From assembly GCA_002718595.1 (NCBI GenBank), contig PBFD01000002.1:173485-234464 (forward strand): a DNA stretch of 60,980 nt, in the 5' to 3' direction. The notes beneath the pieces are model-generated. The model saw only the letters and a program-made list of their open reading frames with translations, searched no databases and had not been told where the DNA came from. Both the position numbers and the translations under genes were made by a program. Position 1 is the first letter of the stretch; each line of letters starts with the position of its first letter. This DNA comes from Gemmatimonadota bacterium (lineage in GTDB: Bacteria > Gemmatimonadota > Gemmatimonadetes > Longimicrobiales > Gaopeijiaceae). Below, piece by piece: positions 4,361 through 41,656 of this stretch.

Positions 4361-4426
4361 TTTGACGTTATCCTGCAACTAATTCCTTACTTTTAGCTCT
4401 CAATAAAAAAAGAATTGAAATTTAAA

Positions 4427-5365: not shown

Positions 5366-7232
5366 AGGTAAGCTTCATAGGCAAATCAAGCGCTACAAAA
5401 TCTGAAATATCTAACTTCCAAGTTTCAATTTCAGACTCATCCAAAATTTTAGTAAATCCTAATTTTTTATAATGATCTTTAACAATAATATTGCGAACGG
5501 TGGGAATATAAGTACCAACCACTTTAGTTGCACCGCTAGCCTTAGCATTTGTCACTATATCCTGTAAGGCGGCCAATTCAACCCGTCTACCCAATACACG
5601 ACAACTCATTAACCATGAATCAATCTCCCAAGCGGATGTGTTTTTTTTGCAAACAATTACACTAATCATGCCGTTATCACCGAAAGTGTCTTTAAGTCGA
5701 ATCTGACGCGTATAAAAACTTTGGTCACCTTCCAATTCTTTTACATCTAACTCGCTATAACGTTTAGTAGTAAGGTTGAATTGATTGGATTTACTGATTA
5801 ATTGTGCGATACGGGCTCGACCAGTTGCATCAAATGGAGTGAAGGATATTTCCATATCCAAAGACTTTAAATATGCATCCATATCAGAGGATTGATTTAG
5901 GGTCTGTACTCGCTTTGCGTTGCCTTGATAAAAAGTTGCCCGCTTACGATCTTCTTCTGAAAAAGTAATGGCCTCAAAATATCCAGCGGCAATAAGAGTT
6001 CGTGCGTATAGTGCTGGGTCTTTAGGTAATTCAGGTACAGCCACTTCAGGTAATTCACGACGAACTTGCATTCGTTCAGCTGGATTGTCATCTAGAAATA
6101 CCATGCTCTCTAAACCCAAAGAAAGCATTTCAGCTATTGCCTTGATGTTTGAAGCCTTGTCAGACCAGTTGGCCTGGAACGCTGCAATATGTTCTTCCCG
6201 TAAAAGCATATCTGGATGCTCTTTAAATGGTTGACGAGCAGTAGCGTCCTCATTCTTAGACGAGACAGCAAGAACTACTCCTCGCTCACGGAGCTCTAGT
6301 ACAGTTTGCTGTATATGCAAATGAGCTTCAGCTGTTGGATCTCCATTACCAATTAATATGCCCTCTAGTCCATCATCTCCAATGACACCACCCCAGAGTG
6401 TATTATCTAAATCTAAAATGAGGCAGCGACGACTTTTCCCTAATCTTGCTGACATAATACGACAAACATAGTCAGCATATATTGGCATGTATCTTTGAGA
6501 GAAAGATAGTTTAGCTATATTCCATAGAGTTGGATCATGCCAATTCGTCAATCCTAGATTAGCCGCAAGTCCTGCAATATCCACTATAAAAGTATCATCA
6601 GCTACTAATCCGTCTAGCTCACTGTTTAAACGCGAAATTAACCAGTTTGCTGAGCCTGGCAAGCTCCCCTCATAACTACCTGATAAAGCCTCAACTGGTG
6701 AAGCAATATTTTGAAGAATGATCTGGGCCCCTGTTTTAGTACGCACGGACTCTACGACTGATTTTAGATAACCAAGGCAATCTTGAACATTTTTTTCGGC
6801 TGAGTCCTCATCTCCTGGGCATGGCGATAGAGGTAAGCCACGGTAATCAATAGCCACTAATATAAAATCTAATTTTTGGCTAATGAATACAGAATCTGAA
6901 GAAAAGGTTTCTTGTGCAATTTGATTAAACTCTGCCTCAACAACTTGCAGCGAAATACCAGAACGCAAGGCAGTCCCAACTAAGGCAGGAACCACTAGCT
7001 TAGTAGTTGCGTTACTGATCACACCAATTTTTATGGCAGTCAAAGGCAAAAGATCGACATGCTCATTTTGCAAAGTTAAGGTCTTTTTATATAAGCGCCG
7101 TAAATGATTTTCATCAAGTGAGAATTTAGCCAATTCTCGCAAGTCATTTCCGTTAGTTACCTCATTCAATCTTTGCGAAAAATCTTGTGGAGGTTGGGGC
7201 AACCATGATAAATCTTCATATATATTATTCAT
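5358..7232 (-). CDS. FkbH-like HAD-IIIC protein (glyceryl-ACP type acyl loading)
   Basis: A 624-residue protein. Residues about 1-265 form an alpha/beta domain resembling the SGNH-like N terminus of this family. Residues about 270-420 are the HAD domain with LILDLDNTLWGG (Asp274, Asp276), AVSSKN and MVFLDDNPAER. The C-terminal about 180 residues resemble a GNAT fold (SKSNQFNLTTKRYSE, LMSCRVLGRRVE). FkbH proteins take a three-carbon unit from 1,3-bisphosphoglycerate and load it on an acyl carrier protein. In glycan clusters they are thought to supply an acyl group for amino sugars. An ACP gene lies at 8880 on the same strand, which supports that role. All HAD catalytic residues are present. 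Confidence 0.82.
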   Translation of the reverse strand: MNNIYEDLSWLPQPPQDFSQRLNEVTNGNDLRELAKFSLDENHLRRLYKKTLTLQNEHVDLLPLTAIKIGVISNATTKLVVPALVGTALRSGISLQVVEAEFNQIAQETFSSDSVFISQKLDFILVAIDYRGLPLSPCPGDEDSAEKNVQDCLGYLKSVVESVRTKTGAQIILQNIASPVEALSGSYEGSLPGSANWLISRLNSELDGLVADDTFIVDIAGLAANLGLTNWHDPTLWNIAKLSFSQRYMPIYADYVCRIMSARLGKSRRCLILDLDNTLWGGVIGDDGLEGILIGNGDPTAEAHLHIQQTVLELRERGVVLAVSSKNEDATARQPFKEHPDMLLREEHIAAFQANWSDKASNIKAIAEMLSLGLESMVFLDDNPAERMQVRRELPEVAVPELPKDPALYARTLIAAGYFEAITFSEEDRKRATFYQGNAKRVQTLNQSSDMDAYLKSLDMEISFTPFDATGRARIAQLISKSNQFNLTTKRYSELDVKELEGDQSFYTRQIRLKDTFGDNGMISVIVCKKNTSAWEIDSWLMSCRVLGRRVELAALQDIVTNAKASGATKVVGTYIPTVRNIIVKDHYKKLGFTKILDESEIETWKLDISDFVALDLPMKLTYV

Positions 7233-9153: not shown

Positions 9154-9234
9154 CTATATCGAGGAAGTTAAATCAAACACAAAACTAGAAGGATCAAAAT
9201 CTAAGTGCAATTTATTTTTGAGCATTTGTAACAA
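9154..9234 (-). pseudogene. Possible fossil tail of a gene upstream of the ACP gene
   Basis: On the minus strand, 26 codons between two stops read LLQMLKNKLHLDFDPSSF then VFDLTSSI and a stop, 23 bases before the ACP start. The residue pattern looks like a protein C terminus rather than random sequence. If so, the rest of the gene was lost at the junction with the wzx block. The assignment rests only on appearance. Confidence 0.25.
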
Positions 9235-9386
9235 CTATCTTGGGTAGTTCTAGAGTTGTTTTTTATTCTTCTTTTCTTACCTTCAAGCACCCTGTTGCTT
9301 AATAATTTAATGCCTAATGTTATTTATCAGGTAAATGTAAGTTAACTACTAATAAACATGCACCGAATAAAATCCCCAGGAAATTG

Positions 9387-9424
9387 TCTTGGGAGATTTC
9401 AAGGGGAGGCTGGATGAGCATTCC
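9387..9424 (+). repeat. Left copy of hisF-leader direct repeat
   Basis: This 38-base segment matches 14834-14872, the leader and first codons of the hisF-like gene, with two substitutions and one single-base gap by eye. It includes the GGGAGATTTCA and GGGGAG elements and the CTGGATGAGC start region. Here the start codon leads to only five further codons before a stop, so this copy is a scar and not a gene. Confidence 0.85.
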
Positions 9425-9477
9425 ACGTTCCTAAGTAACTACCAAATACCATAGGAAGCAAAGGGGGCCAAGTAACT

Positions 9478-10782
9478 ATTAATAAGAATCACCTGCAAGC
9501 CTTACTTCCAGTAGCAACAGCCAGTATTGTCATTCGTGCTATCACGATTGCATCGAAATTTGCGCTACTCGGCTATTTAGGGCGCTATATGACACTTGCA
9601 GATCTGGGCACCTATGGGATCCTCGCAACTTCTGTAGCAATGTCTGTTCAATTCCTCGGAATGGAATTTTACGTCTTTAACACAAGGGAAATCTTGGGGG
9701 CTGACCAAGCCAAAAGGGGCCTATTGTTGAGTGGCCAACTAACGTTTCATGGCTTGATATACCTCCTATCGTTACCTGCATTGTCTATTCTATTTTTCGC
9801 CGGCATTCTACCGTGGTCACTCGCGGTCTGGTTTTATATCCTGATCATAGTGGAGCACCTGTCAGTAGAAACCTGTAGGATTTTATTTGTTATTGGGCGC
9901 CCTATTTTAGCCAATTTCGCAGGATTCATCCGAATTGGATCTTGGGTAGCTATCGCGGTCACGGTCGGCTTACAAATCCCAGAGTACCGATCTGTTCAAG
10001 CTATTGCAATATTTTGGATCCTAGGTGGCCTTCTTTCCATATTAATCGGATGTAAGCCATTACTACAATCGGATTGGTCCAACCCCTTTGAGATCCGTCC
10101 GAGACTCGATTGGATTCGTAAAGGGGTATCGGTAGCTATGCCCTTTTTTATGTCCGCAGTAGCTTTGAACACTATATATTTTTCGGACCGATTTATCATC
10201 CAGCACTTCAGTGGTATAGAACAGGTCGGACTATACACATTTCATCAAAGTGTCGCAGGACTAGTATATACGGCGATTACTATAGGGGTAGTGAGCATCA
10301 TCTATCCAAAAATCGTAAAATCTTTCCTTATCCGAGACATGGCGCGATACACCCAGGAACGAAAAACTTTAGCAGTGGCAATAATATCTGGCAGTATATT
10401 GGTGAGTCTATTTCTCATCCTGATATTCCCATATCTAGCTGATTTCATGAAAAATCCGCAGTTTATTGAAACTCGTTCCGTTTTCTTTATCCTATTATTG
10501 GGTTCAGTCATCCAAAATATTAGCTTTGTCCCACACTATGATTTATATGCTAGAAGTATCGATCGGGATTTGATGTGGTCGACCATTCTAGCCGCTGCAT
10601 TAAACGTCGTTCTTAATTTCCTTTGGATCCCCAAATTCGGGATCATTGGAGCAGCTTGGGCCACGACCGTAGCATACATTATGCTCCTAATAACAAAATC
10701 TTGGGCAGTAGCCATAAGGTCTAAACAACCAGGTTGGGTCCCTCCTCAGAACATTAATACACTCGAGACAAACAATGAGTAG
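9478..10782 (+). CDS. wzx: Wzx-type lipid-linked oligosaccharide flippase
   Basis: About 434 residues with 12 or so hydrophobic segments in the polysaccharide-transporter/MATE-like pattern. It would move the undecaprenyl-linked repeat unit across the inner membrane. The first in-frame ATG (9589) is too far in: 37 codons before it match the N terminus of a second, decayed wzx at 34447-34635 (about 38 of 60 residues identical). The frame is open back to a stop at 9436-9438 and has no ATG, GTG or TTG there. An ATT at 9478, about 10 bases after GGGGG, is the best-placed initiator, and the codon before it (ACT) aligns with the GTG start of the relative. The gene overlaps wzy by 8 bases. Confidence 0.8.
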   Translation: MNKNHLQALLPVATASIVIRAITIASKFALLGYLGRYMTLADLGTYGILATSVAMSVQFLGMEFYVFNTREILGADQAKRGLLLSGQLTFHGLIYLLSLPALSILFFAGILPWSLAVWFYILIIVEHLSVETCRILFVIGRPILANFAGFIRIGSWVAIAVTVGLQIPEYRSVQAIAIFWILGGLLSILIGCKPLLQSDWSNPFEIRPRLDWIRKGVSVAMPFFMSAVALNTIYFSDRFIIQHFSGIEQVGLYTFHQSVAGLVYTAITIGVVSIIYPKIVKSFLIRDMARYTQERKTLAVAIISGSILVSLFLILIFPYLADFMKNPQFIETRSVFFILLLGSVIQNISFVPHYDLYARSIDRDLMWSTILAAALNVVLNFLWIPKFGIIGAAWATTVAYIMLLITKSWAVAIRSKQPGWVPPQNINTLETNNE

Positions 10783-12004
10783 CCCGGCTGACAGAACCAA
10801 TAAAGTAACACAACTTGGTTACTGGATTGTTTGGTCCATGGTTTGCATTTTTCTGAATGTGAGCATCGGCGGAGGAATTTACGGATCCACATTATGTCTC
10901 GCTTGGGTAATAGGACTGTGGATTGTCACTGATTTAAAGAATCAAGGTGTCCAAACAGGACTGGTATTTCTCGTCATTCTATTTGCAATAAGCCTAACTG
11001 CTGGAGGTTTAATAAAAGGCACTGACACAGCATTGAGAATATGGGACTTGCCTACCGCTGAAACAGGCAACAGAACCTTCCAAGAACTAGGAAAAATCCT
11101 ATTGGTCATCCTCGGTACACTGTCCTTGAAGAATATTCCTCATAGAATTTTTGAGTCCTTAGTCTTCTGGATCCCCGTCGGTATAGCTGGAATTTCAGTC
11201 ATCACCTATATCTCTGGCGATGGAAACACATACGACCTATTACGGTTTAATATCCCTAGCTTGGGCTCCTCAAATACTTCGGGATATTGCTTCGCAATTA
11301 GTCTTCTTATGGCACACTTCTCATGGGGAAAGACCACTGACAATACCATACGTCTTCTGATAATAACTGTGACCTTAGTACTGGGTGCAGCTTTGCTGGC
11401 AACAGTCTCCAGAGGAGCAGTCTTACAGTATATCGCTGGGCTACTAGCCTTCACCAAAAGGAAGAGTCAGGCATTCGTTGGAATTGCAGCAATAATAGCA
11501 ACGATCGTCTTACTCTTTCCCAACATCGCAGAGTATCTGCAGAGGTTACTCTCTCTCTTAGATCTTCAAGCACTACAACAAGAAGGTACTGGAGGGGGAC
11601 GTATATTTATCTGGAAATCCCTCATAGGGAGCCTGCTCTCTGCAGGACCATGGCACTTCTTCTTCGGCTTTTCCCCAGGAAGCATCAGCTTGAGACTACC
11701 CGGAGCAGGAGGATCTCTGGTACAGTTTTCAGCTCACTCATTATACGTGGATATCCTATACTCATTTGGAATCATCGGAGCCACAATTGGAGCCTACTGG
11801 ATGCTTAAAATTTCCCGCAAAATCCTTAAATCCTCTCCCAGAGATCCATGGAGAAATTTACAGTGGGGCTTATTTGTAATTTTATTTTTCGGTGGCGTCT
11901 TCGATTCCTATATAGTTACAGCTCAACTACTCTGGCTTAGCTGTGTCGTACTCGCGATTTTACACGTAAATTCCCCTCAAGAATACCAAAAGTTAAGAGC
12001 CTGA
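10775..12004 (+). CDS. wzy: Wzy/O-antigen ligase-type polymerase
   Basis: A 409-residue integral membrane protein with about 11 predicted helices. The long periplasmic stretch near residues 250-330 carries GGGRIFIWKSLIGS and AHSLYVDILYSFGIIG, the Arg-rich and 'HS.y...l...G..G' motifs of the Wzy_C/O-antigen ligase fold. It would polymerise repeat units on the periplasmic side. WaaL-type ligase is an alternative, but the tight coupling to wzx (8-base overlap) and nearby wzz favour the polymerase. Its stop overlaps the ATG of the decayed gene at 12004. Confidence 0.75.
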   Translation: MSSPADRTNKVTQLGYWIVWSMVCIFLNVSIGGGIYGSTLCLAWVIGLWIVTDLKNQGVQTGLVFLVILFAISLTAGGLIKGTDTALRIWDLPTAETGNRTFQELGKILLVILGTLSLKNIPHRIFESLVFWIPVGIAGISVITYISGDGNTYDLLRFNIPSLGSSNTSGYCFAISLLMAHFSWGKTTDNTIRLLIITVTLVLGAALLATVSRGAVLQYIAGLLAFTKRKSQAFVGIAAIIATIVLLFPNIAEYLQRLLSLLDLQALQQEGTGGGRIFIWKSLIGSLLSAGPWHFFFGFSPGSISLRLPGAGGSLVQFSAHSLYVDILYSFGIIGATIGAYWMLKISRKILKSSPRDPWRNLQWGLFVILFFGGVFDSYIVTAQLLWLSCVVLAILHVNSPQEYQKLRA

Positions 12005-12348
12005 TGTCTACGTTGCATATTTTCATACACGTATCTTCTCCCTGAGAGGATGTCTTCGCTGGAGTTCACAAAAGCCTAGAACATTCGACCCAACAGCAAG
12101 ATACTTGTGTAACCATCACTCTAGAGGACCATGACTACGAGTATATAGAGAACATTGAATTTACTTTCCGCAAATATGCTCGCTTTCTATATTACGGTGG
12201 CATCTTTAGAAAAATTGAGAAATCAGTGGTAGACGTCTTAGAAAAATATTCTGATCAAAAGTCTGTCACTTTCTACTTAGCCGAAGAAGGTGTTAGAATT
12301 GTACAGGATGATGCACTCTTTTTGGAAAGAGTATCCTTGGGACTTTGA
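12004..12348 (+). pseudogene. Decayed relative of the glycan gene at 33299-34447
   Basis: The frame starts with an ATG overlapping the wzy stop and reads MSTLHIFIHVSSP, then an in-frame TGA at 12043-12045, then EDVFAGVHKSLEHSTQQQ and on through YARFLYYGGIFRKIE and VTFYLAEEGV. About half of the first 97 positions match the intact 382-residue protein encoded at 33299-34447. Similarity ends near 12303 and the frame stops at 12346-12348, so roughly three quarters of the gene is missing. A complete six-base-stem hairpin (12358-12375, CTGCCA/TGGCAG) lies just after it. Confidence 0.85.
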
Positions 12349-12469
12349 TTTGCAGTTCTGCCATTATTTTGGCAGGAGTGGCTAACCTAGAAGCTCACTC
12401 AGATAACGGACTTCTTTTCTTAGAGAGCATTATTTGTCAAAAAATTAAAAAATAGCAAGGCATCGTAGT

Positions 12470-12482
12470 TCCTGCCCCTTAA
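12470..12482 (+). repeat. 13-bp inverted repeat, left copy, beside fkbM
   Basis: TCCTGCCCCTTAA here is the exact reverse complement of TTAAGGGGCAGGA at 13379-13391, at the 3' end of the fkbM-type gene. An 8-base direct repeat CGTAGTTC also occurs at 12464-12471 and 13411-13418. Together they frame the fkbM gene. Confidence 0.7.
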
Positions 12483-12504
12483 CCAACGAAGGTAGAAAGA
12501 AACA

Positions 12505-13398
12505 ATGAAAGAGGTTATAAAAAGATTTATCCCATCAGCTCTAAAGCAACGTATTCACAGATTCTTATGGGCATATGTACGAAAAATTAATCTTAAAAAT
12601 GTTTTTGGGTTTGATATCTATCATAATTCTTCAGATACTATTTATTACAAAAAGTTTGCTGGCAAAGCGATTAGCGATGTTGCAAATTCTAGTGATGGAA
12701 GAATTTTCCATACAATGGACAGATTTATTAGAGATGGGAGTGTTGCTATCGACGTGGGTGCTAGTATTGGCCTTATGACTTTAGTAATGTCAAAATTGGT
12801 TGGTAACAATGGAAAGGTTCTGTCTTTTGAACCTGGTCCAGTAAGCTACGGTCTCCTTCGACGAAATGTTTTTACTAATGTACTTAATGGAAACGTTACC
12901 ATTTCTGATAACGCTCTTTCAGACAGTTTAGGTAGCTTTAATCTTTTTCTTAGCCCATCGGGTGAAAGTGATAATCAATTACATAAAGACATGGCTGTCT
13001 ACACGTTTAAAGATGAATTGCCTCGAGCTAAGTTTATTGTTAATACACAAACTATCGATCATTGCCTTGCAGAAAATGAAATTGATTTTGACAGAGTTTC
13101 ATTCATAAAAATCGACACAGAGGGACATGATTTATTTGTGTTGCGTGGAGGACGTTCGCTCTTTTCAAAAGCCACTAAGATAGCAGTGCTTGTTGAGTTT
13201 GCTCCATACTTGAAAGCTTGGGAAAAAATAACTATTGACGAATTTTATAATGAATTAGTTTCGCTAGGATTCGATATCTATGATGACGCAAATCTTAAAT
13301 ATGGGAAGGTCGATTTATATTATCTAAAGTCAAATTATGGTTTTGATAAGGTGGGTAAATACACAGATCTTTTGCTGCTTAAGGGGCAGGACCTATAA
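12505..13398 (+). CDS. FkbM-family methyltransferase
   Basis: A 297-residue SAM-dependent methyltransferase. The SAM-binding motif AIDVGASIGLMTLVMSK (about 78-94) is followed by VLSFEPGP and by the family's second signature FIKIDTEGHDLFVLRGG (about 205-221). FkbM proteins O-methylate sugars or small molecules; within a glycan locus a sugar methyl ether is the likely product. The ATG is 14 bases after a GGTAGAAAG. The gene is more AT-rich than its neighbours and shows G over C on the coding strand, unlike the wzx, wzy and wzz genes around it. It is also framed by a 13-bp inverted repeat, all of which suggests separate arrival. Confidence 0.85.
   Translation: MKEVIKRFIPSALKQRIHRFLWAYVRKINLKNVFGFDIYHNSSDTIYYKKFAGKAISDVANSSDGRIFHTMDRFIRDGSVAIDVGASIGLMTLVMSKLVGNNGKVLSFEPGPVSYGLLRRNVFTNVLNGNVTISDNALSDSLGSFNLFLSPSGESDNQLHKDMAVYTFKDELPRAKFIVNTQTIDHCLAENEIDFDRVSFIKIDTEGHDLFVLRGGRSLFSKATKIAVLVEFAPYLKAWEKITIDEFYNELVSLGFDIYDDANLKYGKVDLYYLKSNYGFDKVGKYTDLLLLKGQDL
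13379..13391 (+). repeat. 13-bp inverted repeat, right copy, inside the fkbM 3' end
   Basis: TTAAGGGGCAGGA is the exact reverse complement of 12470-12482. It covers the codons for the last few residues (LKGQD) of the methyltransferase. Confidence 0.7.
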
Positions 13399-13458
13399 AT
13401 ATTTGGAAGACGTAGTTCGCTTAGCTATCATTGTAGTAGAAAAGGAGACTTGCCAACA

Positions 13459-14520
13459 ATGGACACCCATTCATCTCATCAAAGCCTAAAACAAGGCCAT
13501 ACAATATTATGGGTAATGACGATAATCCTTCGACGTCTTCCCTTTGTATTGAAGACTATTCTGGGAGTCATCATCATTTCTTCTGCTACCATTTTTGCCA
13601 CAGATGAATACACATCTACTTCAATGTTTATACTCGAATCCAGATCTAGCACTGGAAACGCAGGGATCGGAGCTCTAGCCCAGAGCTTTGGCGTTTCTGC
13701 AATGGGAGGGAGCTTGGGTAATGATTCGGATCCTCCTCAATTTTATGCTGCAGTCCTTAGTTCCTATGACTTTCTTGCTAATATAGCCCAAATAGAATAT
13801 GTAAATCCTAATCCATCTGACAACGGAGTCGACCAGCAAATAGTTAGGCCTATTGACCTATTTTCTGATCCCCAAGAAGAGCTAGCTAAGAGACTCGCGA
13901 TAACCGTAGATGCACTTCGCGACAAGGTGACTACAGACTTCGATCCCCTTTCAAGAATTATAACCTTAGAAGTCACATCTGAGTGGCAATGGTTTTCAGA
14001 AATCCTTAACAAGAGCATGCTGGAATCTCTAAACGATTTCAATGTTGGGAAACGTGAATCCCGTGCCACTTTTGAACGTATCTTTACGGAAAATAGGTTG
14101 AGTGAAGCCCAGAAAGAGCTAGAATCCGTGGAAGACTCACTCGCAGAGTTCTACGCTCGCAATAGAAGGATCGAAGACTCCCCTAGCCTAATGGCAGAAG
14201 CAGCTCGCACGCAACGACGTGTGGAAGTCAGTCAACAAGTATACCTTACTCTTTCTCAGGCTTACGAAGAAGCTCGTATTGAAGAAGCCCGAAACACTCC
14301 CTTGATTACTGTTATTGACAGGCCTGAAGGATCTTCTGAACCTCTAGGGTCCATTCTCATCCAAATCATATTAGGAGCGCTACTGGGTCTAGGCATAGCC
14401 GTGGCTTATCTCGTTTTCGAAGAATTCGTTAGGGTCCAACGTATCAAACAATCGCCAGAATACTTGGAGTTTCAGAAGGTTTTGCGACAGTGGTGGCCAT
14501 ATCCAAAAAACAGGCCTTAG
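13459..14520 (+). CDS. wzz: Wzz-type chain-length determinant protein
   Basis: About 353 residues with the Wzz topology. A first membrane helix lies near residues 25-50 (LPFVLKTILGVIIISSATIF), followed by a large periplasmic domain with coiled-coil character (NRLSEAQKELESVEDSLAEF, AARTQRRVEVSQQVYLTL). A second helix (ILIQIILGALLGLGIAVAYL) is preceded by the proline/glycine-rich VIDRPEGSSEPLGS. There is no kinase domain. It would set the modal length of the polymer made by Wzy. An in-frame TTG at 13450 exists, but AAAGGAGA sits only 2-3 bases from it and 11 bases from the ATG chosen here. Confidence 0.82.
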   Translation: MDTHSSHQSLKQGHTILWVMTIILRRLPFVLKTILGVIIISSATIFATDEYTSTSMFILESRSSTGNAGIGALAQSFGVSAMGGSLGNDSDPPQFYAAVLSSYDFLANIAQIEYVNPNPSDNGVDQQIVRPIDLFSDPQEELAKRLAITVDALRDKVTTDFDPLSRIITLEVTSEWQWFSEILNKSMLESLNDFNVGKRESRATFERIFTENRLSEAQKELESVEDSLAEFYARNRRIEDSPSLMAEAARTQRRVEVSQQVYLTLSQAYEEARIEEARNTPLITVIDRPEGSSEPLGSILIQIILGALLGLGIAVAYLVFEEFVRVQRIKQSPEYLEFQKVLRQWWPYPKNRP

Positions 14521-14577
14521 GAAAACACTGGACAGATTCAGCTTAAAGTCACAGCAAGATTCAAATCATCCTTTACT

Positions 14578-14827
14578 CTACCAATCATTGGCTTCTTCAA
14601 TTTTTTTCGGTAGATCATTAGTATCTAATCGTGGCACAAGAAATCTGGTATCTCAGCTTCATTATCAACACTATATATCACTTCTTCCATTGTTATTACG
14701 TTGTAATTTTTGCGTATATAATCAATTTGTTTTTAAACAAATGAATGTCTAATCCTTTTATATTTGGATATCGTGAATTTTTCATGTCCCTCCATAGTGG
14801 TACATTACTATATGTTAGATTATTCAT
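14578..14827 (-). pseudogene. Relic of a polysaccharide deacetylase gene
   Basis: On the minus strand an ATG at 14827 opens MNNLT and then, across frame changes, VMYHY, RDMKNSRYPNIKGLDIHLF and DYIRKNYNVITMEEVIYS. This parallels the intact deacetylase at 4427-5365 (VVMYHYVREIKG, IKGLEFEKFKTQLDYL). At least three single-base frameshifts are needed, one of them in an A run. After EIPDF the sequence jumps to PRLDTNDLPKKIEEANDW and a stop, matching the C-terminal RYDTNDFPQ of the intact protein. About 230 codons, including the metal-binding core, are deleted. It lies 3' of wzz and immediately upstream of the hisF leader. Confidence 0.85.
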
Positions 14828-14833
14828 TATTTT

Positions 14834-14872
14834 TCTTGGGAGATTTCACGGGGAGCCTGGATGAGCCATTCA
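14834..14872 (+). repeat. Right copy of hisF-leader direct repeat
   Basis: The functional copy: it contains the ribosome-binding region GGGGAG and the start of the hisF-like gene at 14861. It matches 9387-9424 over 38-39 bases with two substitutions and a one-base gap. Confidence 0.85.
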
Positions 14873-22614: not shown

Positions 22615-23205
22615 GTGGGTTATGAAATAAAAATTGATGCTTGGTTGGAAGATGCGGCTACTCTCATTCGTGGCATCGATGTTAACTCGGTCGCAGATGC
22701 TGCTGAAGGCCTGCTCCGGGTGAGAGATGCTAACGGTACAATGTTTTTGGCAGGCAATGGCGGGAGCGCTTCTACAGCAAATCATCTGGCTCTGGACCTT
22801 CAGAAAGCTGGTATTTCTCCCAAGGGGGTGAGGCCCAAAGTAATATCTCTTTCTGAAAACATAGGTCTAATAACTGCTTGGGGTAACGACGAATCCTTTG
22901 ATGTTGTTTTTGAAAAACAGTTGGAAGCACTGGCTGAAGAAGGGGACAGTCTCTTGATCATTTCAGTTAGTGGTTCCTCACCGAACCTAGTGAGAGCAGT
23001 TTCGAAAGCTAACGATGTAGGAATGTTAACCGTGGGTTTTTTGGGAAAAGATGGGGGTGCCTGTAGAGATTTGTTAGATTGTCCAATAATACTGCCATCT
23101 TGGGACTATGGTTGGGTGGAGTCTGGCCATGTGGTTTTACATCATATTTTGACAAATATATTCCACGAGTCGGATCATTCGCAGGTTGGGCTTCCAAAAA
23201 CATAA
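22615..23205 (+). CDS. gmhA: Sedoheptulose-7-phosphate isomerase
   Basis: A 196-residue SIS-domain protein. AGNGGSASTANHLALDL (about 46-62), LITAWGNDESFDVVFEKQL and LLIISVSGSSPNLVRAV are the GmhA sugar-phosphate-binding and catalytic segments. It makes D-glycero-D-manno-heptose 7-phosphate for the GDP-heptose route completed by HddA (30903) and the HddC-GmhB fusion (24171). The GTG start has GGAGGAG nine bases before it. The 3' end is duplicated, in decayed form, at 24041 onwards. Confidence 0.87.
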   Translation: MGYEIKIDAWLEDAATLIRGIDVNSVADAAEGLLRVRDANGTMFLAGNGGSASTANHLALDLQKAGISPKGVRPKVISLSENIGLITAWGNDESFDVVFEKQLEALAEEGDSLLIISVSGSSPNLVRAVSKANDVGMLTVGFLGKDGGACRDLLDCPIILPSWDYGWVESGHVVLHHILTNIFHESDHSQVGLPKT

Positions 23206-23262
23206 ATGAAAATTAAAGGTCATTCGAGGTTTATGCTTCTAGTCAACCTCGGAAGAGGCCAG
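23101..23262 (+). repeat. Left copy of gmhA-tail/hddC-head duplication
   Basis: From 23101 this sequence aligns with 24041 onwards, with a 29-base exact core (23135-23163 versus 24076-24104). This copy contains the intact gmhA 3' end. After the gmhA stop it goes on to ATGAAAATTAAAGGT and a segment TTATGCTTCTAG...GGAAGAGGC that resembles the first codons of hddC (CTTCTTGCTGGAGGAAGAGGC), apparently as a dead copy. Confidence 0.75.
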
Positions 23263-23323
23263 TTGTTCATTTGCGAAAAGTCCCAATTCTTTGATTTGCC
23301 CCTTCACGATGAAAGGCTTGGAA

Positions 23324-24001
23324 ATGAAAAAAGAAAACAGAGATAGAATTCTGATTTTTGGTTCCTCTGGGCATACTGGTGTTGTAATTGATATAGTGGA
23401 GAGGGAATCTAAATTCGACATTTTAGGTCTTATTGATCCTCATAGGGATCCAAATGAAGAATTTATGGGCTATAAGGTGATTGGTAACGAGGAAGAATTA
23501 CAAGAAATAGTCCTCACACATGATGTTAAAGGTGGAATAATTGCAATCGGTGATAATTGGTTGAGAAAAACAGTGCGAGACAAGATCTTGCAAAATTGTC
23601 CTGATTTTCGGTTTCTGGCCTGTATTCATCCCAGTGCACAAATAGGAAAAGATGTGGCTATCGGGAAGGGTACAGTGGTTATGCCGGGAGTAAGTGTGAA
23701 CTCCGGTTGTGTTGTGCATGAGCACTGTATTCTTAACACAAACAGTTCTTTGGATCATGACTCAGTAATGGGTGATTTCTCCAGCCTTGCACCTGGGGCT
23801 ACACTTGGTGGCAATGTAGGAGTAGGAAATTTTTCAGTAGTCTCAATGGGTGCGAATGTCATACATGGCAAGGAAATAGGTGAGCACTCATTGATAGGGG
23901 CGGGTTCGTTGGTAAATAAAAATGTAGGTGATTGTTCAGTATGGTATGGTGTCCCCGCCAAATTTGTACGAAGACGGCAACCAGGTGAAAGGTATCTTTA
24001 A
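23324..24001 (+). CDS. NeuD/PglD-like sugar O- or N-acetyltransferase
   Basis: About 225 residues. An N-terminal PglD-type Rossmann-like domain (RILIFGSSGHTGVVIDIVE) is followed by a left-handed beta-helix of hexapeptide repeats (IGKDVAIGKGTVVMPGVSV, HCILNTNSSLDHDSVMGDF, GNVGVGNFSVVSMGANV) and the end motif VWYGVPAKFVRRR. Such enzymes acetylate an amino group of UDP/GDP-4-amino sugars, or sialic acid hydroxyls. It is a candidate for the LegH acetylation step. In-frame TTG and ATG codons exist upstream (23291, 23309), but AAAGG precedes the ATG used. The gene is flanked by duplicated gmhA/hddC sequence, so it looks inserted. Confidence 0.8.
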   Translation: MKKENRDRILIFGSSGHTGVVIDIVERESKFDILGLIDPHRDPNEEFMGYKVIGNEEELQEIVLTHDVKGGIIAIGDNWLRKTVRDKILQNCPDFRFLACIHPSAQIGKDVAIGKGTVVMPGVSVNSGCVVHEHCILNTNSSLDHDSVMGDFSSLAPGATLGGNVGVGNFSVVSMGANVIHGKEIGEHSLIGAGSLVNKNVGDCSVWYGVPAKFVRRRQPGERYL

Positions 24002-24040
24002 TTAATGTTCTGGGAGTGTCGCCCAGTAACACTAGTTTTT

Positions 24041-24146
24041 TGGACCTGTGGTTGGGTAGAGTCGGACCAGGTGATTTTTACATCATATTTTGACAAATAT
24101 ATTCTGTCAGTTGGATCCATTAGCAGCTTAGAAACTAGTTAGAGGA
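24041..24146 (+). pseudogene. Decayed duplicate of the gmhA 3' end
   Basis: Read in the gmhA frame, this stretch gives W-x-x-GWVES-x-x-VI and then, after a one-base insertion, the segment equivalent to LHHILTNIF. A 29-base run (24076-24104) is identical to gmhA. It ends before the intact start of hddC-gmhB at 24171. With the left copy it brackets the neuD-like gene. Confidence 0.75.
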
Positions 24147-24170
24147 AAGAATGAGAACTAAAGGTTATTT

Positions 24171-25478
24171 ATGAGAGTTGTTCTTCTTGCTGGAGGAAGA
24201 GGCACTCGGTTAGAGAGTAGAGAAATACCTAAGCCTATGGTTCGGATCGAGGGGAAGCCAGTCTTGGAACATCAGATCGTGCTTTTGAAGGCTCACCGAT
24301 TTACTCAAGTGACAGTACTGGCCAGCTATAAGGCGGAGAAGATAGAAGAATATTTTGGAGATGGAAAAGAGTTTGGTATTGATTTGGAAATAGTTAGAGA
24401 AGATCCGCCTCTCGGAACAGCTGGTGCTGTGAAAGCTTTTGCTAAGAACTTTAAAGACCCGTTTTTAGTCATCTATTCTGACCTGATGATAGACATGGAT
24501 CTTACCCATCTCGTAGAATTTCATAAATCTCGGGATAGCCTGGCGACATTGGTGGTCCATCCAAATGACCATCCTTTAGATAGCGATTTGGTTGAAATAG
24601 ACGAGGAAGGATTTGTCAGGGAATTCATTTCTAAGCCTCACAAAACTGATGCGGGGAAACGCAATCTTGTGAACGCAGCGGTTTACGTGCTGGATCCTCT
24701 GCTTCTCAAAATGATTCCAGAAGCAGAACCAAGTGATTTCGGGAAAGATATTTTTCCGGAGTTAGTCAAATCTGGTGGGAGGGTCAGAGCTTATCTTACC
24801 ACTGAGTATGTTAAGGATATGGGAACTCCCCAAAGGCTTGCTGCTGTAACAAGGGATTTTCAAACTGGTAAGATCGGGAGAATGAAGCGCAGCATTAAGC
24901 GTAAAGTGTGTTTTCTCGATAGAGACGGTGTGATAAATCAAGAGGTGGGAGATTTAAGTAGAGTTGACCAATTAGTCTTGATACCTGGTGCAGCTGAAGC
25001 TATTCGTAAGCTTAACCAAAAAGGATTTTTGGTTATTGTGGTCACAAACCAGCCTGCGTTAGCCAAGGGATTCATGACATTTGAGGGATTATCGGAAATC
25101 CATGCTCAGTTAGAATGGGTCCTGGGATTAAGTGGAGCTTTCGTCGATGGTATTTATGTCTGTCCTCACCACCCTAAGAAGGGATTCCAAGGAGAAGTTG
25201 AGCGACTCAAAAAGGCCTGTGAGTGTCGAAAGCCTGCACCAGGATTGCTATTACAGGCTCTAGTAGACCATAATCTAGATATGTCTAATTCATGGTTGAT
25301 TGGAGATCGGTTTTGTGACATTGCAGCAGGAAAGTCTGGGGGTGTAAACAGCAACATTCTAGTTCAAACTGGACATGCCGGTCATGACGAGGATCTTTTT
25401 GAGGAAAAACCAGATTTTGTTGTTGAAAGTATTGTGGAGGCTTGTAATTTGATTTTAGAAAGGTCGGGCGAAGAATAA
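24171..25478 (+). CDS. hddC-gmhB: Fused heptose-1-phosphate guanylyltransferase and heptose bisphosphatase
   Basis: A 435-residue two-domain protein. Residues 1-235 are a nucleotidyltransferase with VVLLAGGRGTRL, KPMVRIEGKPVLEH, IYSDLMIDMDL and the C-terminal EYVKDMGTPQRL, resembling HddC. Residues about 243-435 are a GmhB-type HAD phosphatase: CFLDRDGVINQE (Asp250, Asp252), VVTNQPALAKG, and the zinc-binding CPHHP with ECRKPAPG. It would thus dephosphorylate heptose 1,7-bisphosphate and activate the 1-phosphate with GTP, two consecutive-type steps in the GDP-D-glycero-D-manno-heptose pathway. GmhA (22615) and HddA (30903) supply the others. The order of domains is transferase first. Confidence 0.85.
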   Translation: MRVVLLAGGRGTRLESREIPKPMVRIEGKPVLEHQIVLLKAHRFTQVTVLASYKAEKIEEYFGDGKEFGIDLEIVREDPPLGTAGAVKAFAKNFKDPFLVIYSDLMIDMDLTHLVEFHKSRDSLATLVVHPNDHPLDSDLVEIDEEGFVREFISKPHKTDAGKRNLVNAAVYVLDPLLLKMIPEAEPSDFGKDIFPELVKSGGRVRAYLTTEYVKDMGTPQRLAAVTRDFQTGKIGRMKRSIKRKVCFLDRDGVINQEVGDLSRVDQLVLIPGAAEAIRKLNQKGFLVIVVTNQPALAKGFMTFEGLSEIHAQLEWVLGLSGAFVDGIYVCPHHPKKGFQGEVERLKKACECRKPAPGLLLQALVDHNLDMSNSWLIGDRFCDIAAGKSGGVNSNILVQTGHAGHDEDLFEEKPDFVVESIVEACNLILERSGEE

Positions 25479-28325: not shown

Positions 28326-28753
28326 GGATACCTGAAGATCTCTATACTTCTATTAGGCAAGCTATTCCGATCATCTGTGTAGATCTGGTGATCGAGAACT
28401 CAGACGGACATTTCCTATTGGTGAAGCGAACCAATCATCCACTCAAAGCAGAGTGGTGGGTTCCAGGTGGTAGACTTTTACATTCTGAAACTGTGATGAA
28501 CGGAGCTATCCGCAAAGGTAAAGAAGAGTTGGGGATAGAGCTGGAAAATTTAACTTTTATGGGGTTCTTCGAAGAAACTTTTGAAGTTGATTGTAGAGGT
28601 GCAGATATTCCGTATCATACTATTTCGTTAGTTTATCGAAGCAGAGTGGTTGATTCGGATCATATCCGTTTGGACGAGCAAAGTAGCGATTTCATATGGG
28701 CTACAGCATTGCCAGAAAAATTTATAATTAAGAAGAGTGAAGGATTTCAATGA
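28322..28753 (+). CDS. gmm: GDP-mannose mannosyl hydrolase-like Nudix protein
   Basis: A 143-residue Nudix protein with N-terminal sequence typical of GDP-mannose hydrolases (AIPIICVDLVIENSDGHFLLV, RTNHPLKAEWWVPGGRLLHSE). The Nudix box is altered (AIRKGKEELGIEL in place of the RE.xEE pattern), as also seen in Gmm. It would hydrolyse GDP-hexoses, perhaps balancing the GDP-sugar pool made by neighbouring genes. It overlaps both neighbours by 4 bases, so it is translationally coupled to them. Confidence 0.78.
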   Translation: MRIPEDLYTSIRQAIPIICVDLVIENSDGHFLLVKRTNHPLKAEWWVPGGRLLHSETVMNGAIRKGKEELGIELENLTFMGFFEETFEVDCRGADIPYHTISLVYRSRVVDSDHIRLDEQSSDFIWATALPEKFIIKKSEGFQ

Positions 28754-29727
28754 AAGCACTGATTTTAGGCGTGACAGGACAAGATGGGAGCTACATGGCA
28801 GATCTGTTGCTGAGCAAAGGATATGAAGTTCATGGGTTAATAAGAAAATCTGCAACAGGAAATACTATCAACATCGCCCATATTGTTTCGGACAAAGACG
28901 TTTTTAATAAACAATTTTTCTTACATCAGGGTGATCTGGCTGATCCTACTTCACTATATCGAATTATTGCAGATGTTCGTCCTAGTGAAATTTATAATGA
29001 GGCAGATCAGGATCATGTGCGATGGAGCTATGATATGGTGGGGTACTCAAGTGATATCACGGCCGCTGCTGTAGCTCGCATTCTAGAAATAATCCGACAG
29101 GTGGATGATAGTATTCGATATCTACAGCCTTGTACATCTAACATGTTTGGGAAAGTGGACTCTGAGACTCAAAATGAATCAACTCCTTTTAATCCTCAGA
29201 GTCCATATGCGGTTGCGAAGACCTTTGCGTATTATATGACACGCTACTATAGGCAGGCTTATGGGATTCATGCCACTAATGTAATTCTATTTAATCATGA
29301 GTCTCCACGCCGTCCAGCTGACTATGTGACCAGAAAAATTTCCCAGTCAGTCGCGAGAATTTCTGTTGGCAAACAAGGGGAACTAGTTCTAGGAGACACT
29401 TCTGCGAAAATAGATTGGGGATTTTCGGGCGATTACGTGGAAGCGGAGTGGTTGGCCTTGCAACAAGATGAGGCTGACGATTATGTAATAGCTACTGGCA
29501 AGGCACATTCAGTTCAAGAATTCGTCGATGAGGCTTTCGCTGTAGTCGGGCTGGATCCGAAAAAGTATGTGAAAAGTTCTAAGGAATTTTTCAGAGTCAC
29601 ACCGACCAGCACATTAACAGGAGATTCCTCGAAAGCCAGGAAAATCTTAGGCTTTAGTCCTAAAGTGAATTTTTCTAAACTTGTGAAGATGATGGTGGAA
29701 GCTGACCTCGAGAGAGAGAAACAATAG
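28750..29727 (+). CDS. GDP-mannose 4,6-dehydratase-like enzyme with altered active site
   Basis: A 325-residue protein that follows GMD along its length: ILGVTGQDGSYMADLLLSKG, the GDP-loop Arg in GLIRKSATGNT, NHESPRR and PYAVAK (Tyr153, Lys157). In GMD the element 'STSE.yG' gives the catalytic Thr and the Glu base; here it reads CTSNMFG, with Thr129 kept and Asn131 in place of Glu. The enzyme may therefore do different chemistry or use another base. The substrate could be GDP-mannose or, given hddA, gmhA and hddC nearby, GDP-manno-heptose. A perosamine-type aminotransferase follows 14 bases downstream. Confidence 0.78.
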   Translation: MKALILGVTGQDGSYMADLLLSKGYEVHGLIRKSATGNTINIAHIVSDKDVFNKQFFLHQGDLADPTSLYRIIADVRPSEIYNEADQDHVRWSYDMVGYSSDITAAAVARILEIIRQVDDSIRYLQPCTSNMFGKVDSETQNESTPFNPQSPYAVAKTFAYYMTRYYRQAYGIHATNVILFNHESPRRPADYVTRKISQSVARISVGKQGELVLGDTSAKIDWGFSGDYVEAEWLALQQDEADDYVIATGKAHSVQEFVDEAFAVVGLDPKKYVKSSKEFFRVTPTSTLTGDSSKARKILGFSPKVNFSKLVKMMVEADLEREKQ

Positions 29728-29741
29728 GACTTGAGGAGAAA

Positions 29742-30878
29742 ATGTTGAACGAATTCATACCAGTTTGTGAGCCAACCTACGGGTTAGAGGAGCGAACAGC
29801 TCTAATAGATGCTTTTGACAGTGGTTGGGTATCATCCGGTGGGGAGTATAATGACAAACTAGAAACCGATTTTGCAGCATATTGTCATGTGAAACATGGA
29901 GTTTCAGTTTGTAATGGCACAGTGGCAATACACCTCGCTATTAGAGCTTTAGGATTGTCAGCGGGGGATGAGGTGATTGTTCCCAACCACAATGGAATAT
30001 ACGGAATTTATGCTCTCATGTATGAGGGAATAACTCCAGTATTAGTAGAGGCGGAAGGGCTTACTTGGAATATCGATCCTGATTTGATAGAGAGATCGAT
30101 TACATCGAAGACCAAAGCTATAATGGTCGTGCACCTCTATGGACATCCATGCGATATGGATGCCATTTCAGAAATAGCAGAGAAGCATGGTTTGCCAGTG
30201 ATTGAGGATGCGGCACAGGCTCATGGTGCAGAATATAAGGGTCGGCGAGCTGGGTCACTTGGCACCATAGCCACGTTTAGTTTATTCGCGAACAAAGTGA
30301 TAACTAGTGGAGAAGGTGGTGTGATAGTCACTGACTCTGAAGAACTGGCGAATAAATGTAGGTATTATCGGAATCAGTGCTTTCCATTGAACGGCCCTCG
30401 GCATTTCATTCATGAAGATATTGGTTATAACTATCGCATGACCAATGTCCAAGCAGCTTTAGCATGGGCCCAGCTTGGTAAGATTGACGATCTCATAGAT
30501 GGTCGGCGTAGAGTAAATGCTGAGTATCGCCGACATTTGGAAGGGGTCCCAGGTATTGGATTTCAGCATGAAATGTCATGGGCAAAAAACATCTTTTGGA
30601 TGACAGCTATTACAATAGATCCAGTAGAGGCTGGATTCAAAAGGAATGATTTGGAAAGACATTTGATTGATCAGCAGATCCAGACTAGACGTCTGTTTGT
30701 TGGAATGAACCAGCAGCCAGTTTTGGAAACTGAAACTCAAGATAGTGGAGAGGAAGCAGGTTTCCCAGTGTCAGATTTTCTCGCTGATAACGGGCTTTAT
30801 TTGCCATCTTCCTCCCACTTGGAACAAGAAAAGATAGAAGCTATATCGGTCGCTATCACAGAGTTGGTTTCATCATAG
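29742..30878 (+). CDS. DegT-family aminotransferase, perosamine synthase-like
   Basis: A 378-residue PLP enzyme. GWVSSGGEYNDKLETDFA and VCNGTVAIHLAIRALGL open the fold. VIEDAAQAHGAEYKGR holds the cofactor-binding Asp and SLFANKVITSGEGG the Schiff-base Lys, and IGYNYRMTNVQAALAWAQL is the subunit-interface motif. It adds an amino group at C4 of a 4-keto-6-deoxy nucleotide sugar. Its closest family by eye is GDP-perosamine synthase (RfbE/Per), in line with the GMD-like gene before it. A GGAG is properly placed before the ATG. Confidence 0.82.
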   Translation: MLNEFIPVCEPTYGLEERTALIDAFDSGWVSSGGEYNDKLETDFAAYCHVKHGVSVCNGTVAIHLAIRALGLSAGDEVIVPNHNGIYGIYALMYEGITPVLVEAEGLTWNIDPDLIERSITSKTKAIMVVHLYGHPCDMDAISEIAEKHGLPVIEDAAQAHGAEYKGRRAGSLGTIATFSLFANKVITSGEGGVIVTDSEELANKCRYYRNQCFPLNGPRHFIHEDIGYNYRMTNVQAALAWAQLGKIDDLIDGRRRVNAEYRRHLEGVPGIGFQHEMSWAKNIFWMTAITIDPVEAGFKRNDLERHLIDQQIQTRRLFVGMNQQPVLETETQDSGEEAGFPVSDFLADNGLYLPSSSHLEQEKIEAISVAITELVSS

Positions 30879-34447: not shown

Positions 34448-34635
34448 TAGCATTCCATCCCGAGAAGTTGAACTCCCAGTCCTAAGGAAGTTATTAGAAG
34501 TCCATAGGTTCCGAGGGTCGTATAACGGCCCAAATAGGCAAGCAAAGCAAATTTTGCTAGAATTGAAATTGCTCTCAGAGAAAGATTTGCTGACACTGCG
34601 GGAAGAAGGGCCTGTAACTGGTTCTTATGGATCAC
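34447..34635 (-). pseudogene. N-terminal remnant of a second wzx flippase
   Basis: A GTG start with AGGAG upstream opens 62 codons (KNQLQALLPAVSANLSLRA through VQLLGMEC) that match the N terminus of the flippase at 9478 at about 38 of 60 positions, and then a stop. The remaining about 370 codons of a flippase, and the polymerase gene that would follow, are absent; the next gene (33299-34447) starts at once. A short translated peptide is possible, but a flippase function is not. Confidence 0.85.
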
Positions 34636-39451: not shown

Positions 39452-41656
39452 GTGAAAGATATTAGATCTCCGATGATTGTGGTTACTCTTGGACCTACTT
39501 CGATGGATGAGACTGTTCTTCGGAAGCTCTCCCAAAGGAAGATTTCTTTTGTGAGGATAAATCTTAGCCATACTCCGATCGAGTCACTTGAAAGCACTGT
39601 TTCATTTATTCGTTCCCACTGTAGCATACCACTAATGTTGGACACGGAAGGATCGCAGGTCAGGACTGGGGTCCTGACAGAACCCAAAAGCGTTACTGAG
39701 AACCAAGAAGTAGTTCTCTCTACTCAAGAGTTTGTTGAATCTGGCGGAGTTCCTCTACGGCCAAATAATGTTCTCGGAGTATTAACAGAGGGTGATCTGG
39801 TCTCTCTCGATTTCGATTCCGTGTTGTTAAGAGTCGACTCAGTTTCAGGGAAAGATGGGGAAAAGAAAGTGCGGTCCACTGTTTTGAGTGGCGGCACGAT
39901 TCAAAGCAATAAAGCGGTTACTGTTTTCGACCAGAATTTTCAAATGCCTTCGTTGTCTCACAAGGATGTGAAAGCTCTTGAGATAGCCCAGGAAATTGGT
40001 ATAAAGAATTTCTGTCTCTCATTTGTAGATAGCCCAGAAGATGTCAGGGAGTTTAGAAAATACCATCCAGATGCTTTTGTGCTTTCCAAGATAGAGACTA
40101 GCATGGCGATAGAGAACTTAGAAGAAATAATCGAAATTTCAGATGGTGTCTTGATTGATCGAGGTGACCTTAGCAGGCAAGTGCCCCTGGAAAGAATTCC
40201 ATTTGCACAGAAATATGTCATCAATAAGGCGAATCAGGCTTCGAAGCCAGTTTTGGTAGCGACGAACTTTCTAGATACTATGATGGAAAGTAGGTCTGCG
40301 AGCAGAGCTGAAACGAACGACATTGTCAACACTTTGCTTGATGGTGCAACCGGCCTGGTGTTGGCTGCAGAAACTGCTATCGGTCAGTATCCAGTCGAAA
40401 CCGTATCATTCTTAGTAGGTATGTGTGATGAAGTGGTGCGCTTCAAGAGATCTGGTGAAAACTCTGATTTGGCCAAGGGAGATGTGCTCCCTAAAGCATA
40501 CGATACAAACTATATAACAAGCCCAGCTTTAGGTTGTGGATTGATAGCTCCCCACGGAGGATTTCTGGTTGATCAGCGATGGAAGGGAGACATTCCAGAA
40601 GGTCTTCCCAGTTTGGAATTGTCAGCGAACGAGGCCATGGATGTAGAACAGATAGCTTTGGGTGGTTACAGCCCATTACGGGGATTCATGGGTAAGGGTG
40701 ATTTGGATTCAGTTCTGAGGACCTATAAGCTTGAAAATGGTCATACATGGCCTTTACCTATTCTATTGCGACGGTCTGGGCAGAATGTGCCGACGGGCAG
40801 GGTGGTGCTTACCTTCGATCATAAACCATTTGGCGTAATGGAAATAGAAGATACCTACGATACTGATTGGCAGATGGCAGGGGAACTTCTTTTTGGGACT
40901 CGATCCAGTGACCATCCGGGATTAAGAACTTTTCTGGGCTCGGGTGAGACCGCTTTGTCAGGACCAGTCTGGTTAACTGATAGGATTGCTAGAGAGGGTA
41001 AGAGATATGAACTCAAAGCCGCAGAAACCCGACAAGTATTTGCTGCGAGGGGATGGTCTAGGATCGTGGGTTTTCACACACGCAACGCACCACATCGGGC
41101 TCATGAGCATGTGATGACTAGGGCAATTGAATTGACAGGTTCGGATGGCGTGTTAATTCATCCAGCTGTTGGGACAAAGAAGTCAGGAGATTTTTCCAGT
41201 GCAGCAATCATAGAGGGTTATAGAGGATTGTTGAAAGTTTCAGAAATAACTTCGAAAGCTTTGTTTTCGACCTTCTCTACTTACTCGAGGTATGCAGGAC
41301 CGAGAGAGGCATTATTCACTGCCTTATGCAGACAGAATTATGGATGCACTCACTTCATAGTGGGAAGAGACCACACAGGAGTGGGAAATTTTTATTCTGC
41401 AAATGGGGCTAGAGAACTTTTTGAAAAGAATCCCCAGGTAGAGATCCAACCAGTATTTTTCGAGGAAGTCAAATACAGTAAATCCAAAAAATCCTATGGG
41501 TATGATGTAGTTGACGGTGACGCTTTGGAAATAAGTGGAACAGAGGTTAGAGAAATCGTCCACAATGGCGAACGTCCTCCCGAATGGTATATGCGACCAG
41601 AAGTTGCAGATCCAATTCTGTTACTTGGAGAAAAGGCTTTTGTCGGTGATGGGTAA
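39452..41656 (+). CDS. Fusion: pyruvate kinase catalytic domain plus ATP sulfurylase
   Basis: A 734-residue protein with a GTG start after AAAGG. Residues 1-332 are pyruvate kinase domains A and B. VVTLGPTS and VRINLSH (Arg35, Asn37, Ser39) are followed by LDTEGSQVRTG (usually DTKGPEIRTG), VLSKIET (Lys213, Glu215), RGDL (Asp239) and VATNFLDTM (Thr271). The pyruvate kinase C domain is missing. After a linker (333-355), residues 356-734 form a whole ATP sulfurylase: VEQIALGGYSPLRGFM, GFHTRNAPHRAHE (541-552), LIHPAVGTKKSGDFSS, YAGPREALFTALCRQNYGCT, IVGRDHTGVGNFY and EISGTEVREI. It would make APS from sulfate and ATP for the sulfotransferase; the kinase half may supply ATP from PEP. Domain identities are firm, but coupling is inference. 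Confidence 0.88.
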   Translation: MKDIRSPMIVVTLGPTSMDETVLRKLSQRKISFVRINLSHTPIESLESTVSFIRSHCSIPLMLDTEGSQVRTGVLTEPKSVTENQEVVLSTQEFVESGGVPLRPNNVLGVLTEGDLVSLDFDSVLLRVDSVSGKDGEKKVRSTVLSGGTIQSNKAVTVFDQNFQMPSLSHKDVKALEIAQEIGIKNFCLSFVDSPEDVREFRKYHPDAFVLSKIETSMAIENLEEIIEISDGVLIDRGDLSRQVPLERIPFAQKYVINKANQASKPVLVATNFLDTMMESRSASRAETNDIVNTLLDGATGLVLAAETAIGQYPVETVSFLVGMCDEVVRFKRSGENSDLAKGDVLPKAYDTNYITSPALGCGLIAPHGGFLVDQRWKGDIPEGLPSLELSANEAMDVEQIALGGYSPLRGFMGKGDLDSVLRTYKLENGHTWPLPILLRRSGQNVPTGRVVLTFDHKPFGVMEIEDTYDTDWQMAGELLFGTRSSDHPGLRTFLGSGETALSGPVWLTDRIAREGKRYELKAAETRQVFAARGWSRIVGFHTRNAPHRAHEHVMTRAIELTGSDGVLIHPAVGTKKSGDFSSAAIIEGYRGLLKVSEITSKALFSTFSTYSRYAGPREALFTALCRQNYGCTHFIVGRDHTGVGNFYSANGARELFEKNPQVEIQPVFFEEVKYSKSKKSYGYDVVDGDALEISGTEVREIVHNGERPPEWYMRPEVADPILLLGEKAFVGDG

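Follow-up and report, generated by a model that had tools for sequence, protein, structure and literature searches.

Introduction

Insertion with long target duplication, in which a gene that one genome has and a relative lacks is surrounded by a long direct repeat whose target is single in the relative, was reportedly described by Nobusato et al. in 2000 (Gene 259:99), a study known to us through the papers that cite it. We describe here an arrangement of this kind in a surface-polysaccharide cluster of a Gemmatimonadota bacterium, where a neuD/perB-like sugar N-acetyltransferase gene lies between two copies of the junction of gmhA and hddC. The locus is part of a stretch of 60,980 nucleotides (hereafter the window). 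In the accessible text of three later papers, insertions of this kind are described from two Helicobacter genomes and are tied mainly to restriction-modification genes (PMC1643837, PMC3154945, PMC3031569); 'long and variable target duplications' is the wording found in PMC3031569, and the accessible part of PMC4978471 also cites this type of insertion. Direct target repeats are likewise left by insertion sequences, as by IS1 in the O62 antigen cluster of Escherichia coli, where the accessible text gives a 9-base target duplication (PMC4384082). Homology-facilitated illegitimate recombination adds non-homologous DNA beside homologous DNA and may leave orphan genes; the part of PMC5361080 that is accessible documents it in transformable bacteria and invokes it for gene arrays.

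The neuD locus shares with published long target duplications the empty site in relatives, a direct repeat (here of about 180 bases), and the lack of a transposase or terminal inverted repeats. It differs in its cargo, which in the published cases, from Helicobacter and others, is frequently but not by definition a restriction-modification system and is here a gene for a sugar acetyltransferase within a polysaccharide cluster, and in its scar, which is old, spans a gene boundary in each copy and leaves both neighbours alive. The resemblance to the target duplication of an insertion sequence ends with the direct repeat, since this measures about 180 rather than 9 bases and the insert has no transposase or terminal inverted repeats. 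Homology-facilitated illegitimate recombination requires an anchor in the donor, which is not demonstrable at the neuD bracket and is plausible at a second bracket, at hisF, described below. A search of titles and abstract openings recognised no report of long target duplication in a polysaccharide cluster, which says little, most subscription papers lying outside its coverage. The neuD locus is a known pattern with another cargo and in another type of locus; it is no new system and is ordinary in kind, but it is a clean example.

A duplicated gmhA-hddC junction surrounds neuD

The window lies on a 632-kb contig of a draft genome (2.02 Mb, 7 contigs). It was compared with two congener genomes, G001 (82% complete) and G002 (93% complete), which represent one comparator lineage because they are 96% alike. 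The features of the locus, in window coordinates, are:

22615 to 23205, plus strand: gmhA-like SIS-domain isomerase, intact, its last 8 or so codons lying beyond the ancestral stop (TIGR00441, congener comparison)
23083 to 23261, plus strand: left junction copy, with live gmhA tail, intergenic bases and dead hddC head (alignment)
23135 to 23163, plus strand: 29-base exact core, left copy
23262 to 24022, plus strand: inserted segment of 761 bases, unlike the junction copies and absent at this site in both congeners
23324 to 24001, plus strand: neuD/perB-like hexapeptide sugar N-acetyltransferase (TIGR03570, PglD_N and Hexapep domains, PerB 4ea7)
24023 to 24212, plus strand: right junction copy, with dead, frameshifted gmhA tail, intergenic bases and live hddC head (alignment)
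24076 to 24104, plus strand: 29-base exact core, right copy
24171 to 25478, plus strand: hddC-gmhB fusion (nucleotidyltransferase and HAD phosphatase), intact (PF00483, HAD/GmhB families)

A first-pass annotation, made from the letters of the window, had noticed that the segment from 24041 onward repeats the one from 23101 onward around an exact core of 29 bases. The repeat is real. Alignment gives it a length of about 180 to 190 bases; of the 174 columns aligned, 43 differ, the gaps fall into 8 runs and the identity is about 75%. When 23100-23188 was aligned locally with 24040-24130 the score was 91, and the best of 1000 base-shuffled pairs reached 32. The pairwise alignment that the annotation had proposed as a check showed a similarity exceeding the core, for the part left of the core, the core itself and the hddC head each beat 1000 of 1000 Markov shuffles. 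By the same kind of shuffles, similarity left of 24022 or right of 23262 was not above chance; an hddC remnant extending to the start of neuD was considered and rejected, as 358 of 1000 shuffles reached its score. The unbroken core is longer than expected given 43 differences in 174 columns (chance 0.005), an excess that might reflect gene conversion or some local function. Because the junction was found at a single place in its own genome, with no other copies elsewhere, that genome holds no other source copy.

Reading frames and alignment together bore out the assignment of the four gene ends, namely an intact gmhA end followed by a dead hddC start on the left, and a frameshifted gmhA end followed by an intact hddC start on the right. 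The live left gmhA stops at 23203-23205. At the position of the ancestral stop, G001, G002 and the dead right gmhA tail all have TAG, and the live left gmhA has TCG and so runs about eight codons past the stop of the congeners. The dead hddC head of the left copy has lost its start, ATG 23206 being the counterpart of the upstream ATG 24151; the gmhA tail of the right copy is truncated and carries one extra base, which shifts the frame, and hddC starts there normally at 24171. The gmhA-like protein is 85-87% identical to those of the congeners and scored 97.6 bits against TIGR00441 (gmhA), under the cut-off of 209. Just ahead of hddC lies a seven-codon frame (24151-24174) whose TGA stop shares bases with the hddC start ATG; G001 and G002 have the same layout, which possibly serves translational coupling. 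A search of the junction bracket for inverted repeats and RNA families gave nothing useful, and a promoter scan found weak sites near the 29-base core, from which no conclusion was drawn.

The site is empty in two congeners

Without the acetyltransferase gene, the first-pass annotation had reasoned, relatives should have a simple gmhA-hddC order. This order was seen in both congeners, where gmhA runs directly into hddC-gmhB (with a gap of 50 bases in G002), the junction of about 180 bases is single-copy and neuD is missing; a double structure conserved as the ancestral state was thus found in neither of the two. In G002 coordinates, the BLAST matches of the two flanks share 13428-13501, precisely at the place of the insert; such an overlap is the mark of a duplicated target. 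The neuD gene had no match in the G001 genome and no close one in G002, where a hexapeptide protein of 25% identity on another contig was the only match. Around the site the genes of the window have the same order as in G002, at about 65-84% DNA identity per 400 bases, except for the neuD insert and a few others. The insert holds a single gene in its 761 bases and no transposase gene; terminal inverted repeats were not found, only two inverted pairs of 11-12 bases, neither of which links the insert ends.

In the 146 genomes searched, full-length relatives of the hddC-gmhB fusion occurred only in the source genome, G001 and G002, at 78% identity. Six distant loci with relatives of the fusion were uninformative on the gmhA-hddC junction, and viral contigs yielded no gmhA relatives.

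Age and polarity of the duplication

When the dead gmhA tail and the dead hddC head were pooled, 19 sites agreed with the own live copy and 7 with G002 (p=0.029). Because the dead halves are nearer to their own live genes, the duplication most likely arose in the source lineage after its split from the congeners. The 18 intergenic columns were mixed, with 2 joining left and right, 3 joining left and G002, and 8 joining right and G002. The distance between the left and right copies is 0.30 substitutions per site, and the source genome and G002 differ by 0.97 at four-fold sites (851 sites, 8 genes). The duplication is old, not recent, as this left-right distance and the many substitutions and indels in the dead flanks show. 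In simulations of an unselected neuD frame, 16 of 1000 remained without a stop at 0.2 substitutions per site and 2 of 1000 at 0.3. Since an unselected frame would rarely remain open over such a time, in which the flanks decayed, neuD is very probably useful and kept by selection. The new gene was thus retained while its duplicated borders decayed.

Proposed history and competing mechanisms

We consider it likely that a neuD piece of about 0.76 kb was joined into an ancestral gmhA-hddC junction in the source lineage, presumably in one duplicative event, and that about 180 bases became doubled on either side. In the ancestor, gmhA would have run straight into hddC-gmhB, the order that both congeners have kept. 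The piece, with its one neuD/perB-like gene, would have been joined in as the gmhA end and hddC start were doubled around it; a functional gmhA end would then have persisted in the left copy and a functional hddC start in the right one, and the redundant halves would have decayed. Such a duplication accounts for both neighbours being whole, because an insertion into the gap of about 50 bases or into the gene ends would otherwise cut or uncouple a gene. As to the mechanism, we favour, as a matter of judgement, a repair or replication tract that departed from the junction at the hddC head, took up foreign DNA by copying or joining it, and came back into the gmhA tail some 180 bases upstream, an illegitimate, duplicative event that would need no donor homology. 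A crossover with a circle, or a duplication followed by entry, fits the geometry equally well; we prefer the tract because it needs neither a junction-bearing donor nor a second, exactly placed event. The first-pass annotation had offered those two mechanisms, a single crossover or a local duplication followed by gain of a gene. Its ancestral gmhA-hddC pair, duplicated junction and gained acetyltransferase are supported by the congeners, and the choice of either mechanism is neither shown nor excluded.

In a Campbell-type integration, a circle carrying a gmhA-tail/hddC-head stretch together with neuD would recombine once within that stretch. This would produce exactly the observed geometry and would be natural with a close relative as donor, but the donor would need the same junction beside neuD, and in none of the eight neuD loci inspected does the gene lie beside gmhA or hddC. 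Moreover, the two copies resemble each other more than they resemble G001 or G002, so that the donor would be a sister strain and the question would only be moved back; we regard this course as unlikely. The geometry would also fit two steps, a tandem duplication of the junction (or of a longer gmhA-hddC stretch) and a later replacement of, or entry into, its redundant middle by neuD. A redundant middle would presumably tolerate insertion. Two events are then needed, however, the second landing exactly between the copies, and no residual tandem material is found past the 180 or so bases, which leaves the two-step course a minor possibility. A comparably small share of belief goes to homology-facilitated illegitimate recombination, in which incoming linear DNA would have one end anchored by homology and the other end joined illegitimately, so that the intervening stretch is duplicated. 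Besides its record in transformable bacteria, it has in its favour that the hisF bracket is compatible with it, one copy there having seemingly arrived with recently exchanged DNA. At the neuD bracket, by contrast, no exchanged patch is visible, both sides being 76-84% identical to G002, and the donor must have had neuD next to the anchor.

The direction of change could also be reversed, with an ancestral double structure from which G001 and G002 lost neuD by recombination between the repeats. With a single comparator lineage, no outgroup speaks against such a loss; yet a dead half-gene in each copy is sensible only as the duplicate of a once-continuous junction, and the dead halves are nearer to their own live genes, which makes this reversal very improbable. 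Practically no weight is left for an assembly artefact. The draft state of the genome (7 contigs) speaks for it; against it, the copies differ by a quarter (43 of the 174 columns, and 8 gap runs) and so are not an assembly duplicate, and the contig measures 632 kb. Several points weigh against the history that we propose, a single duplicative gain of neuD. There is one comparator lineage and no outgroup, so that the direction depends on how the dead halves are built and on a site count of modest weight (p=0.03), and gene conversion between the copies could be another source of their mutual resemblance. The breakpoints are too decayed to display microhomology or end sequence, and the composition of neuD (41% GC, 32% at third positions) is not foreign to its neighbourhood. 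The donor was not found, the best neuD homologues being only 44% and 47% identical and all 65 plasmid records of relatives falling below 60% identity. Finally, the published examples of such insertions that we found are mostly restriction-modification genes, not sugar genes.

The gained enzyme and its likely role

The likely start of neuD is ATG 23324, with AAAGG upstream; the longest open reading frame begins at TTG 23291. The protein scored 192.3 bits against TIGR03570 (NeuD/PglB/VioB sugar acetyltransferases), above the cut-off of 160.8; among solved structures it is closest to PerB, a perosamine N-acetyltransferase (PDB 4ea7; E 2e-26, near whole-length). His 156 (TTG numbering) aligns with a PerB His that is replaced by Asn in chain 4eaa and by Ala in chain 4eab, which we take to be active-site mutants. 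The cluster holds a Gmd-like (GDP-mannose-dehydratase-like) enzyme and an aminotransferase close to perosamine synthases (28750-30878); a heptose set of gmhA, hddC-gmhB and an hddA-like gene, all under the curated cut-offs of those names; and a legionaminate set in which LegB, LegC, NeuC/LegG and NeuB are above cut-off and the cytidylyltransferase is below. Elsewhere, a DegT aminotransferase is a neighbour of the neuD homologue in 5 of the 8 loci inspected.

From these similarities, the gained enzyme probably acts on a 4-amino sugar nucleotide that the cluster makes, and would acetylate it on the nitrogen of the 4-amino group. Likely candidate substrates are the product of the Gmd-like enzyme and the perosamine-synthase-like aminotransferase, or the LegB/LegC product in legionaminate synthesis. 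In the accessible text of PMC6137143, the step between LegC and LegG in the latter pathway belongs to the N-acetyltransferase LegH. NeuD would thus either decorate a perosamine-type sugar or fill the LegH step; our preference is for the former because the Gmd-like and aminotransferase genes are also present in G002, which is without neuD, so that acetylation there would be optional. NeuD is like PerB and PglD/VioB in sequence and in the catalytic His, but, going by the neighbouring genes, its substrate may equally well be a precursor of the heptose type or of legionaminate.

Surface sugar decorations differ between close relatives, and the gain of neuD shows concretely one way in which such a difference can arise; an acetylated sugar is predicted in the source species, made differently by the congeners. 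G002 has PHP, ATP-grasp and SDR genes after wbuX (L040:7650-10362, minus strand) that are missing from the window, and it is a speculation of ours that they supply another acyl group. The methyltransferase gene found between neuB and the cytidylyltransferase in the window and in G002 (contig C16) is lacking in G001 (L041, G001:C11 near 4646), and because G001 lacks it although 96% alike to G002, gene turnover is fast.

A second bracket at hisF and the repeat background

A self-search of the window returned only one other spaced direct repeat of such size:

9384 to 9423, plus strand: left copy, with hisF leader and dead hisF start
9424 to 14830, plus strand: 5.4-kb segment between the copies, with flippase-like, Wzy_C, FkbM methyltransferase and GNVR genes, absent there in G002
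14831 to 14871, plus strand: right copy, with leader and start of the live hisF (ATG 14861)

All 35 aligned bases of the left copy agree with G002, and this copy lies in continuation of a 93%-identity patch that ends at the bracket; the right copy matches at 32 of 35, with about 75-81% identity in the adjoining hisF. One side of this bracket thus seems, from these identities, to have arrived by recent exchange, and because of that the hisF bracket may have arisen by anchored illegitimate recombination and not by a simple insertion. Two segments, 4031-5451 and 9155-9418, are 93% identical to G002, compared with about 64-84% in the rest of the window; a 3.7-kb insert that carries an FkbH-type gene separates them, and they look like recent exchange between lineages.

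The same kind of search in 400 kb of the rest of the contig (C2; 20 stretches of 20 kb) returned 4 pairs, two of them in one tandem array, one formed by adjacent exbD-like paralogues (judged by eye) and one a repeat of about 130 bases. Apart from this last, ambiguous pair, those 400 kb held no clear bracket, and the 55.9-kb contig of G002 gave 0 pairs. The repeat of about 130 bases is direct (G000:C2:132099-132228 and 135772-135899; L075) and by eye contains a hairpin and a Fur-like box. It matched no Rfam family, and about 5.6 kb around it had no match in G001 or G002. We read it as a regulatory pair; the alternative is a third bracket, for which there is no empty site to judge by.

A bolder and less likely reading is that the surface-polysaccharide clusters of this genus repeatedly gain genes by duplicative, transposon-free insertion, with target duplications that span gene boundaries. 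If so, single genes could be added inside a tight operon with the neighbours unbroken, and the window would hold two such events of different age. The empty site at neuD shows the entry of one gene into a tightly packed operon, with both neighbours intact.

Other observations in the window

The flippase-like gene of the hisF segment (9589-10782) has a dead counterpart on the minus strand at 34452-34598, in the opposite orientation, which consists of the head of such a gene; G002 carries a flippase-like gene at the place of this remnant. That the remnant (about 34.45-34.6 kb) is the ancestral orthologue and the live copy an import was considered and dropped because the site counts did not support it, with 40 sites joining the live copy and G002, 18 joining the remnant and G002, and 13 joining the remnant and the live copy. 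A single frame at 39452-41656 encodes a pyruvate kinase barrel fused to an ATP-sulfurylase and is followed by an overlapping APS kinase, an arrangement that is 81% identical in G002.

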